Assembly (NCBI GenBank): GCA_027627225.1
Contig: CM051030.1
Coordinates: 806,001-870,000 of the forward strand
Direction: 5' to 3'
Length of the DNA stretch: 64,000 bases
From: Congeria kusceri
Lineage: Eukaryota > Mollusca > Bivalvia > Myida > Dreissenidae
Below are positions 38,142-44,100 of the stretch, piece after piece. The notes below the pieces were generated by a model that saw only the letters and a list, made by a program, of their open reading frames with translations, did not search any database and was not told the DNA's origin. Made by a program: the position numbers and the translations under genes. Position 1 is the first letter of the stretch. The number at the start of each line of letters is the position of its first letter.

Positions 38142-41100
38142 GTAAGTCTATTTTTATTGGCAAAACACTGCTGGATTAATGGAAGTCAAATAATGAGTGT
38201 TACTTTAAAGCCACACAACACAAAATGTGGCCACTTTCTGACTCTACAATTTAACGGTCATCTTATTGTCTGTCTTCGGCTAAGACAAACAATAAGATGA
38301 TCATTTAATTGTAGAGTTAGAGAGACTCTTAGCATGTGTTTACGTTGGTATTTAACCTATGTAAGGCTTGTTCGGTTTGTTGGATAATTTTTATTGCAAA
38401 TTCACTGGTCCTCCAAGTAAAACTGTTTACAAATACTAGCTTTATTTACTGCCCAATATCATGGCAACACAGATTAAATCCAACAATATACCGTTAACAT
38501 TCGGCGAGCTGCACGAGATTCTAAATAAGACACGAGGAACTTTTCTACATCATAGTGTTCAGAATGTAAACACCAAGCTGAATTTCAAACTGTTCAAATG
38601 CCATTTATATAAGGTGTAAAAAAATATGTTTGTTTCAGGTAACATGCTAAAAAAAAATTGGGTAGGTAGGTCGGGATTTTTTTTTTTTTTTGGTAAATGG
38701 TCAACTTGAAGGTTCTTAAACTGAATCAATATTCAAAACAGATCAGTAATATCCTTAAACATTGTTTATAAGTGGATACTATCAAAACAAAACACTTATT
38801 TATCCAAAACACATTTAATTATTGAAAAAAGTAAATAAAACAGAAATCAATCTGACAAACCCAATAAAATGTTCTAGGGTCGGGGCATTTTTTTAGGGTA
38901 GGTCGGGTTACCTGAAACAAATATATTTATTTTTTTACGCCTAATAAAAATATGTACAAGTGTTAAGCTCATTATGCATTATTTTAATTGTATGTTATCT
39001 CAAAATTAAACTTTAAATGTTTTGTGTTAATGCCTTAACGAAGCTAGAGTCTAGGGTTAGTGTTTAAATAGTAATAGTGATCTTTGTTTTGGTTTTGTTG
39101 ATTTAAGCCTAGGTCACACTGTCATGATTGTGACTATCATTGACACGTTAATAGTTATGAATTGTGATGCAAAGTGTCCAGATTGCAGGGATGGTCCCAT
39201 AGTGCTGTGTAACCCTCAATGATATACGATCTATATGTCGCAGGGATGGTCCCATAGTGCTACGTAATCCTCAATGATATATGATCTATATGTCGCAGGG
39301 ATGGTCCCATAGTGCTACGTAATCCTCAATGATATATGCTCTATATGTCGCAGGGATGGTCCCATAGTGCAACGTAACCCTCAATGATATATGATCTATA
39401 TGTCGCAGGGATGGTCCCATAGTGCTACGTAATCCTCAATGATATATGCTCTATATGTGGCAGGGATGGTCCCATAGGGCTACGTAATCCTCAATGATAT
39501 ATGATCTATATGTTGCAGGGATGGTCCCATAGGGCTACGTAATCCTCAATGATATATGATCTATATGTCACAGAGATGGTCCCATAGTGCTATGTAATCC
39601 TCAATGATATATGATCTATATGTCGCAGGGATGGTCCCATAGTGCTACGTAACCCTCAATGATATATGATATATATGTTGCAGGGATGGTCCCATAGTGC
39701 TATGTAATCCTCAATGATATATGATCTATATGTTGCAGGGATGGTCCCATAGTGCTATGTAATCCTCAATGATATATGATCTATATGTTGCAGGGATGGT
39801 CCCATAGTGCTATGTAATCCTCAATGATATATGATATATATGTTGCAGGGATGGTCCCATAGTGCTATGTAATCCTCAGTGATATATGATCTATATGTTG
39901 CAGGGATGGTCACATAGTGCTATGTAATCCTCAGTGATATATGATCTATATGTCGCAGGGATGGTCCCATAGTGCTACGTAACCCTTAATGATATATGAT
40001 CTATATGTCACAGAGATGGTCCCATAGTGCTACGTAACCCTTAATGATATATGATCTATATGTCGCAGGGATGGTCCCATAGTGCTACGTAACCCTCAAT
40101 GATATATGATATATATGTTGCAGGGATGGTCCCATAGTGCTATGTAATCCTCAGTGATATATGATCTATATGTTGCAGGGATGGTCACATAGTGCTATGT
40201 AATCCTCAGTGATATATGATCTATATGTCGCAGGGATGGTCCCATAGTGCTACGTAACCCTTAATGATATATGATCTATATGTCACAGAGATGGTCCCAT
40301 AGTGCTACGTAACCCTTAATGATATATGATCTATATGTCGCAGGGATGGTCCCATAGTGCTACGTAACCCTCAATGATATATGATATATATGTTGCAGGG
40401 ATGGTCCCATAGTGCTATGTAATCCTCAGTGATATATGATCTATATGTTGCAGGGATGGTCACATAGTGCTATGTAATCCTCAGTGATATATGATCTATA
40501 TGTCGCAGGGATGGTCCCATAGTGCTACGTAACCCTTAATGATATATGATCTATATGTCGCAGGGATGGTCCCATAGTGCTACGTAACCCTTAATGATAT
40601 ATGATCTATATGTCACAGAGATGGTCCCATAGTGCTATGTAACCCTCAATGATATATGATCTATATGTCGCAGGGATGGTCCCATAGTGCTATGTAATCC
40701 TCAATGATATATGATATATATGTTGCAGGGATGGTCCCATAGTGCTATGTAATCCTCAATGATATATGATCTATATGTTGCAGGGATGGTCACATAGTGC
40801 TACGTAACCCTTAATGATATATGATCTATATGTCGCAGGGATGGTCCCATAGTGCTACGTAACCCTCAATGATATATGATCTATATGTCACAGAGATGGT
40901 CCCATAGTGCTATGTAACCCTCAATGATATATGCTCTATATGTTGCAGGGATGGTCCCATAGTGCTATGTAATCCTCAATGATATATGATCTATATGTCG
41001 CAGGGATGGTCCCATAGTGCTATGTAATCCTCAATGATATATGATCTATATGTCGCAGGGATGGTCCCATAGTGCTACGTAACCCTCAATGATATATGAT

Positions 41101-44100
41101 CTATATGTTGCAGGGATGGTCTTATAGTGCTATGTAATCCTCAATGATATATGCTCTATATGTCGCAGGGATGGTCACATAGTGCTACGTAACCCTTAAT
41201 GATATATGATCTATATGTTGCAGGGATGGTCTTATAGTGCTACGTAATCCTCAATGATCTATGCTCTATATGTCGCAGGGATGGTCCCATAGTGCTACGT
41301 AACCCTCAATGATATATGATCTATATAATGCAGGGATGGTCCCATAGTGCTATGTAACCCTCAATGATATATGATCTATATGTCGCAGGGATGGTCCCAT
41401 AGTGCTATGTAACCCTCAATGATATATGATCTATAATTATTTTGCAGGGACGGTCCCATAGTGCTACATAACCGTTAATGATGTATGCTCTATATGTTGC
41501 AGGGATGGTCCCATAGTGCTACGTAATCCCTACATCAACAGTCTGGAGGAGGATGTGCTGTACCATTTGGATCTCAGCAACAAGAAGAACGACCTGCCAG
41601 CCATGTTCGGCGATGTCAAGGTGAGATACATTTAGGACTTGTTTTCCGGCATTTCCATGAGTCCCTATCTGTATTAGTATCAGTATATCCGTATAAAAAT
41701 CAAACACATTGAAAATCGTGGTTGGCTCCATTTCTCTGTGTCCGCATATCCGCTCCATATAGAATCGCTCGCTGAGCGATTTTATGCGGATGCTGAAAAG
41801 ATACGGACTCCATTCAGCGAGATGAAGGGCAATTTGTATGCTGTGTAAACTACATTAAAATATATAGATATTTATTTATATATTCTAAATAGTAGAGAAT
41901 TTGTTGGACTCTGTAAAATGCTAACAATTTGAAGGGAATTTGTTGGAATTGATTAAATTCTCATAAATGGTTGAGAATTTGTTTGATTTTGCCGCAGTAA
42001 CCATCACCTTTAAAAGGCCCCTACCCTGAATTTGCTGAATCTTATTTAAAAACATACTGCCCAATGTCCATCCATCATGTTGAAAAACAGAAGTAATTCC
42101 ATGTAGTCAAATATGATGTAGTATGTAACCAACATGGATCAATATTTAAATATAATTTTTTTATGATAAACTTCTACCTCATTTTGTGAAATAAGCCATG
42201 TCATGGGTGGAGATGAAGGGGGGGGGGGTGATATATTGGAGTACCCTGGATAACACTCGTTTAAAATTAGGAAAAAAACTCATTTAAAAATAAAAATGGC
42301 AGTATCAGTATGCATAAAAATCTTGACAGATTGATTTAATTTTAAAATTTGTTTCTCACAATTTATTAAACAGCCATTGTTTATTTTATATTTATACATC
42401 TTTAAACCATAAAATAGGTGTGAATTTTGGAAGTTTTCCCTATGAAGGGGCAAACACAGCTTTATTTTGACATTTAGGGAATATGCAGTACCCTTTAACT
42501 AAAATTAAAATTACAAATTAATATTGAAAAAAAATGGACAGGCAATTAAATAGGGAAAGGTCCAGAGAGTAATAGTCCCTATATGTTCTGATACAGACTG
42601 CATCTGTCGCAAGGAAATCACATTTATTGGCATTTGTAATTGATAAATTGACACGCTGAATGATTCTGGGTCCTGGGAAATAGACTGGTAAGATTTAACA
42701 TCCCTGTAATATAGGCCCCCCACCCTGGCCATTTGATACACCAAACATCTCCCACTGGTTGCAATTTAGACAAAAATGTTTGGCTCTAGGGTAGGGAATT
42801 AGAACCCCCCCCCCAACAAAAAAAAATTCCCCTGGGTCAGCCCGCTGCTCCCTCCTAGGAGGAAAATACTGATAGGTGCATCATTCTGTACCTTTTCTGA
42901 TCCTAGCTCTTTCTCTAATTTTATTTCTCTTGTTCTGTGTCCAGTTTGTGTGTTTCGGTGGGTCCACGACCCGGATGGAGAAGTTTGCCCACTTCATGGT
43001 GAAAGAACTGAACGAGAAAATCCCCGCCGGAATGACCCTGTCCAACATTTCCCACGGGTCTGACAGATACGTCCTCTACAAAGTGGGACCGGTGTTATCC
43101 GTGAGCGTAAGTAGAATACATATGAAGCATGTCGTAGAAAAACTGGGCTTAATGCATGTGCATAAAGTGTCATCCCGAATCAGCCTGTGCAGTCTGCACA
43201 GGCTGATCCGGGATGACACTTTCCGCTTTTATGGTATTTTCTTTTTTACGGAAGTCTCTTCTAAATATAAATCCACTGAAGGCGGAAAGTGTCGTCCCGG
43301 ATTTTTTTATGGTATTTTCTGTTTAACGGAAGTCTCTTCTAAATATAAATCCACTGAAGGCTGGAAGAGTCGTCCCTGATTTGTCCCCGGATTTTTTATG
43401 GTATTTTCTGTTTAAAGGAAGTCTCTTCTAATTATAAATCCACTGAAGGCTGGAAGAGTCGTCCCGGATTTGCCTGTGCGGACTGCACCGGCTTATCGGG
43501 GATGACACTTTACGCACATGCATTAAGCCCGGGTTTCCCACGACACGCCTCATATAGTCCCTTGAAAGCCAGAAGGTGTCATCAGAATATATGTGTACAG
43601 AAGGCTGATAGCCCCTTCTGACTTCTGTTGTTGCAGTCAGAAGGTGTCATCAGAATATATGTGTACAGAAGGCTGATAGCCCCTTCTGGCTTCTGTTGTT
43701 GCAGTCAGAAGGTGTCATCAGAATATATGTGTACAGAAGGCTGATAGCCCCTTCTGGCTTCTGTTGTTGCAGTCAGAAGGTGTCATCAGAATATATGTGT
43801 ACAGAAGACTGATAGCCCCTTCTGGCTTCTGTTGTTGCAGTCAGTATTTAGTGTTGTCTGTGAGCGTACAACAACTCATTGCAAATCACTTAATCAGTTT
43901 ACAATGCTGCTTTATGCAGGGGTCCGTCCTTCCGTCCGTGACAATTTTACTGTTTCGTCTAGCACCAACACCGCTTACTACAACACTTGGATACTTACAC
44001 ATTTGTTGCTTATGACCATTCCCTATCCACCCATATCACCCTACCTCACTTTGACCTTGACCTAATTTGCACTTAAAATAATTCAAATGGGCTGTTTCTT

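Follow-up and report, generated by a model that had tools for sequence, protein, structure and literature searches.

In the human CBS gene, the duplication known as 844ins68 spans the boundary between intron 7 and exon 8, and the messenger RNA (mRNA) is still normal. This duplication of 68 bp lies at c.844 (PMC2630376). Minisatellites named 'mirage' have been described in amphioxus, in the globin genes BflGb6 and BflGb9 and in Adh3, TnC and PGBD5 (PMC3087553, PMC3902484), the Adh and TnC cases being reported in the second of these papers. The BflGb6 unit repeats an intron end together with an exon start, and reverse transcription PCR suggests that splicing is regular (PMC3087553). The same account names the Rogers model, in which tandem duplication of AG/GT proto-splice sites gives rise to introns. 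Here we describe an array of this type in the bivalve Congeria kusceri, in a window of 64,000 nucleotides (assembly GCA_027627225.1, contig CM051030.1; C7:806001-870000 of a 1.55-Gb genome) whose forward strand carries an intact eight-exon uridine phosphorylase (UPP) gene. Exon 2 of this gene is preceded by 42 tandem copies of its own acceptor and of the first 27 bp of the exon, and we consider it probable that the array is a mirage minisatellite whose copies are ignored, as only the last acceptor directly precedes a full exon and its donor.

Tandem Repeats Finder places the array at 39185-41529 of the window, with a period of 55, 42.6 copies and 93% matches (features are given in window coordinates, and spans written in the form 39185..41502 lie on the forward strand). 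A direct scan located 43 exon starts, from 39189 to 41503, spaced by exactly 55 bp in 41 of 42 intervals and by 59 bp in one. These sites comprise 42 decoys, which occupy 39185..41502 with 27 bp of exon start and 28 bp of intron end, and the authentic 3' splice site of intron 1 (41475..41502, ttaatgatgtatgctctatatgttgcag), which includes a branch-point-like TTAAT at 41475-41479, assigned as a motif match only. A preliminary description had counted about 42 units of exactly 55 bp, a figure that stands apart from the single interval of 59 bp; it had also placed about 40 copies of the acceptor AG before the functional one, where we find 42, with CAG kept before the exon start at 43/43 sites, and had correctly seen the last unit, number 43, continue into the real exon 2 (41503..41620). 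Its division of every unit into 28 bp of intron end and 27 bp of exon start describes the general anatomy but does not extend to two units. The first decoy exon start (39189..39215) is preceded by an intron part that has only about ttgcag in common with the array, as judged by eye, and unit 42, the decoy adjoining the true site (41420..41474), has a divergent and longer intron end (tataattattttgcag; 13/21 pyrimidines) followed by an exon-like start of 27 bp.

Among the 41 units of exactly 55 bp (the 59-bp unit being excluded), mean pairwise identity is 92.6%, and the units vary at 21/55 columns. In units 2, 3 and 5 the exonic 27 bp match the true exon start at every position; unit 42 is the most divergent, at 4/27 positions, and units 1, 27, 32 and 36 differ at three. 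Such identity in distant units, while the immediate neighbour differs, is typical of concerted evolution with divergent edges, and the same pattern is seen in the rewritten unit 42, in unit 1 without its intron part and in an identical five-unit block. This block, formed by units 13-17 and 18-22 (39849..40398), matches over 275/275 bp and is, on that identity, a recent block duplication, which upholds the earlier suggestion of recent expansion. The left edge of the array, at about TTGCAG, may mark a breakpoint, or microhomology may later have led to a deletion there. In a genome search that scored the best candidates and skipped very common words, 23/23 scored matches of the unit fell inside this array, so that the unit does not behave as a satellite DNA present at many loci.

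The array is thus a minisatellite-type repeat whose unit spans an exon-intron junction, contains splice signals and adjoins the authentic junction. It resembles the amphioxus mirages, in the accessible accounts of them, in having junction-spanning repeats with a splice signal beside the authentic junction, in the occurrence of such arrays in several genes of one genome and on both donor and acceptor sides, and in concerted evolution with divergent edges. It differs in its mollusc host and in the 42 extra copies at one acceptor, where BflGb6 is described with 6 and 3 units of 150-160 bp; the units reported for the amphioxus Adh3 mirage measure 10-72 bp, against 55 bp here. The amphioxus mirages are documented by splicing and allele-length data, and the UPP array by genome sequence. 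In common with CBS 844ins68, a duplicated 3' splice site and exon start lie next to the authentic one, although that human polymorphism consists of one extra copy and forms no array. Duplication across splice signals is likewise shared with the Rogers model, but the UPP units lack AG|GT and no new intron has formed.

The exon model of the gene is based on homology and reading frame. Exon 1 (34789..34862) encodes MSQSQFPKFRDTDVEKDINGRITP and the AG of an Arg codon, ends at the donor AG|gtaagt and, across an intron of 6640 bp, joins exon 2 in frame, yielding a protein that aligns to the Dreissena polymorpha protein P0001. Exon 2 itself has 118 bp, of which the first 27 are homologous to the array, is followed directly by the donor gtgaga, and is in frame with the later exons: exon 3 (42945..43106), exon 4 (45004..45118), exon 5 (46709..46779), exon 6 (50325..50463), exon 7 (51148..51294) and exon 8 with the stop (52801..52940). 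The joined protein aligns through exons 7 and 8, the end of exon 7 having been shifted by eye from 51293 to 51294 to bring the frame into exon 8. The window protein matches solved structures of UPP1 and UPP2 (best E = 4e-56, first five exons), and its closest protein, the best among 1633 hits, is that of D. polymorpha at 88% identity. Identity to the seven aligned relatives, five named bivalves among them, is 73-88%. The residues DGP open exon 2 in 8/8 aligned rows, consisting of the window protein and these relatives, which suggests that exon 2 is common to the relatives and would predate the array. GRITPR, the end of exon 1, is joined to DGP in 5/7 aligned relatives, D. polymorpha included. 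Exon 2 is also present in a UPP paralogue (C7:31.58 Mb), where its acceptor lacks the array.

The consequences of using a decoy are uniform. Exon 1 spliced to any of them reaches a stop after 34-35 residues (42/42), and among the 43 joins to exon 1 a long product is obtained from the last only. Because every decoy gives a premature stop, the cell likely skips them all, as judged from the reading frames, and any decoy products would presumably undergo nonsense-mediated decay (NMD). The true acceptor differs from the decoys in what follows it. A donor lies 118 nt downstream, directly after the exon body, for the last acceptor only, and exon 2 contains GGAGGA at 41545 and 41548 and GAAGAA at 41584, while GGAGGA, GAAGAA, GTAAG and GTGAG are all absent from the 2314-bp array. 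We take GGAGGA and GAAGAA to be enhancers and yUnAy to describe a branch point, and their roles here are putative. With only the last acceptor placed directly ahead of an exon body with enhancer-like motifs and a donor, the decoys are likely ignored, and exon definition, one of the options offered in the preliminary description, together with enhancer proximity is the likely mechanism of site choice, as far as motif positions can indicate.

The enhancer-like motifs are one of three weak, post hoc differences between the true site and the decoys; the others are a motif combination and a hairpin. The combination of TTAAT, GCTCT and TTGCAG occurs at the true acceptor alone among the 43 sites, and TTAAT is missing from the four nearest decoys; its nearest carrier, decoy 38, would give an exon of 397 nt. 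A stretch of 39 nt free of AG lies upstream of 35/43 acceptors. In predicted folds, the true site has one of the less structured branch regions, with ranks of 3, 3 and 9 among the 43 sites over three fold windows, and a hairpin between branch and AG is present, that of the true site being the 6th weakest of 43 over -28..+10 and the 4th over -28..-1.

The mirage reading can be set out as a series of steps. An initial tandem duplication across the intron 1-exon 2 junction would have been followed by array growth through unequal exchange, with one five-unit block copied very recently. The array would be tolerated because U2AF/U2 would recognise the acceptor in partnership with the donor that lies 118 nt farther on, and the purine-rich, enhancer-like motifs that are present in the exon body and absent from the array may aid recognition of the true site. 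The least certain step is the distinction of the true site from the nearest decoys, for which enhancer distance and the branch-point-like TTAAT are suggested.

Several observations weigh against this interpretation. Decoys 42 and 41 would yield exons of 173 and 232 nt, which are ordinary lengths, so exon size alone offers no basis for rejecting them. Over positions -25..-5 (21 nt), the true site has 12 pyrimidines and the decoys 9-13, with 11 in 30/42, which resembles the genuine acceptors of the six other exons (11-18, exons 4 and 5 having 11); units 39 and 42, at 13, exceed the true site, and units 4, 33 and 37 equal it. Pyrimidine strength was consequently rejected as a discriminator, and the weak tract noted in the preliminary description is not distinctive; the tract quoted there was also misread, since the true site reads TATATGTTGCAG and not TATATGTCGCAG. 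The combination of three motifs was recognised post hoc, and 8 decoys carry TTAAT as well (9/43 sites). Local structure separates the true site weakly, its AG accessibility ranking 22nd to 29th of 43, and occlusion of the decoys by an RNA hairpin was rejected on this rank and that of the hairpin. Finally, DGP is not universal: ten relatives were fetched, and of the three outside the alignment, P0016 from Solemya and P0024 from Pecten lack DGP and P0049 begins downstream of it.

A different interpretation, which we regard as unlikely, is that the array acts as an unproductive-splicing rheostat in which decoys are used to a measurable degree, the early stop and probable NMD remove the product, and array length sets the level of UPP. 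The stops behind all 42 decoys agree with such a role, and with the decoys or regulators proposed in the preliminary description, as does the equality of decoys with genuine acceptors in simple scores, units 39 and 42 even surpassing the true site. Array length is likely variable, given the 275/275 identical block, and an abalone gene has an intronic 27-bp minisatellite that differs in length among individuals, although splice sites are unmentioned in the accessible part of that report (PMC6905558). Against this, the decoys carry no sign of selection, which was rejected because the exon and intron halves of the units are equally variable (60 versus 54 non-majority cells; invariant columns 16/27 versus 18/28), and the accessible accounts of the amphioxus precedents report normal splicing. 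The wider proposal, that poison acceptors compete with the true one to set the amount of UPP and that length-variable rheostats of this sort exist at many exon junctions in this bivalve, appears quite unlikely.

It is very unlikely that the copy number, or the whole array, is an assembly artefact. Two occurrences of a 275-bp block without any difference would fit such an error, and the BflGb6 mirage of amphioxus is reported to have been misassembled in the draft genome (PMC3087553); however, C7 is a 77-Mb contig, the units differ at 21/55 columns and so are not one copied error, and other such arrays exist in the genome. We find it highly improbable that the array is bypassed and the UPP mRNA made from a start beyond it, at an alternative first exon or promoter. 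Readings that retain the array all encounter stops, with 56-59 in each of the three frames, as a bypass would suppose, but the GRITPR-DGP join in the aligned relatives, including D. polymorpha, marks the joining of exon 1 to exon 2 as the conserved product. Recursive splicing, in which the many tandem acceptors within the one 6.6-kb intron would serve as stepping stones, as had been suggested, has a negligible chance and was rejected, as recursive splice sites need AG|GT, which is present at 0/43 sites, and the GTAA motifs of the units are located 20 nt inside and do not form a consensus donor.

Arrays also adjoin splice junctions elsewhere in the genome. An acceptor-side array of 35 bp x 118 (C7:797836-801992) reaches the acceptor of a VWC-like exon, gattccaag|GAGAGG; it holds 64 CCNAAG motifs in 4143 bp, and by eye the final 13 bp before the exon are partly unit-like. 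On the donor side, an array of 57 bp x 21 on contig C1 (C1:60925834) repeats an exon end and its GTAAGT donor, and arrays of 33-34 bp, x 3-27, lie at seven VWC exons of C7:710-721 kb, again repeating exon end and GT donor. Multiple junctions of both kinds are thus represented, the donor side on C1 and in the C7 cluster and the acceptor side on C7. A 22-bp array on C17 runs up to a further VWC exon. Within the window, a separate higher-order array of 41/124 bp and 1.8 kb (3838..5660) directly abuts the acceptor AG (5661-5662) of a last exon of VWC type (5663..5799; PF00093 E = 7e-5, below the curated cut-off). It contains TCYCTTGA in 43 units and TCYCAG in none, with TT where the acceptor has AG.

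Whether arrays prefer exon junctions was assessed by asking which loci have an array edge no more than 60 bp from a junction. In a sample of 30 loci of 123 matches to VWC, an edge lay at the junction in 9/30 exon loci, 8 at the donor and 1 at the acceptor, and seven of these nine belong to one cluster of similar exons. Outside this cluster there was no significant preference, with 2/23 VWC exons against about 1.0 expected under random placement. Two loci, L059 and L062, at 114 and 96 bp, lay beyond the threshold. ABC_tran loci, scored in the same way, gave 0/21, a set in which five loci come from small, possibly bacterial contigs (C399, C488, C793). For UPP itself, the test scored 1/7 acceptors, the exon 2 array, and 0/7 donors, exon 6 failing it, and in the UPP paralogue the count was 0/6 exon loci. 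The share of sequence taken up by arrays is 18% in the window and 21% in 104 kb. As arrays occupy about one fifth of the 104 kb and junction matches show no clear excess over chance, the junction arrays can be explained as a by-product of array load, with no process needed beyond tandem duplication at random in a genome rich in arrays.

The UPP gene contains a second array in intron 5 (47096..50126), with a 27-bp unit and higher multiples. A fragment of 16 bp identical to this unit lies in the exon 6 acceptor region (50303..50318), a score reached by 0/300 shuffles, which suggests that the intron 5 array probably once extended to that acceptor. Exon 6 as an exonic-side source of the 27-bp unit was rejected, as 174/300 shuffles reach the score and the match consists of the 16 intron bp only. 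Between the array and this fragment is a dispersed element (50133..50263) that appears by eye to resemble a short interspersed element; 40 of 1270 candidate matches were scored, at 78-100% identity including the element itself, and most of the others span query bases 3-7 to about 133. No transfer RNA was detected in the window by ARAGORN. Intron 3 holds four near-identical 68-bp copies (43570-43844), each with an acceptor-like ttctgttgttgcag and, after it, a short run of sequence similar to the exon 3 end and donor (2/300 shuffles reach the score). A relation of this array to the exon 4 boundary was not significant (144/300 shuffles). In the UPP paralogue, an array of 88 bp x 34 (C7:31587802-31590784) carries cattttcag in each unit, and no adjacent exon was recognised. 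Three further arrays of the window, at 56429-57214, 58810-59424 and 61041-61651, are built from closely similar units of 161 bp and lie within about 5 kb of one another, and on the reverse strand at 21988-25806 an open frame of 1272 codons is, by eye, a candidate ORF2 (open reading frame 2) of a retrotransposon without long terminal repeats.

Literature searches, conducted mainly by title and in open papers, found the name 'mirage' in amphioxus papers only, and none was recognised outside cephalochordates. The kind of structure reported here is the known mirage; what is new is the mollusc host, the size of the array and the testable problem of splice choice that it poses. With 43 near-identical acceptors and one productive choice, the locus constitutes a natural competition assay for 3' splice-site selection, in which a single gene could separate the contributions of branch point, pyrimidine tract, enhancer distance and first-come transcription. 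Any genome dense in tandem arrays may generate junction-spanning minisatellites, which offer raw material for the evolution of introns and exon boundaries.

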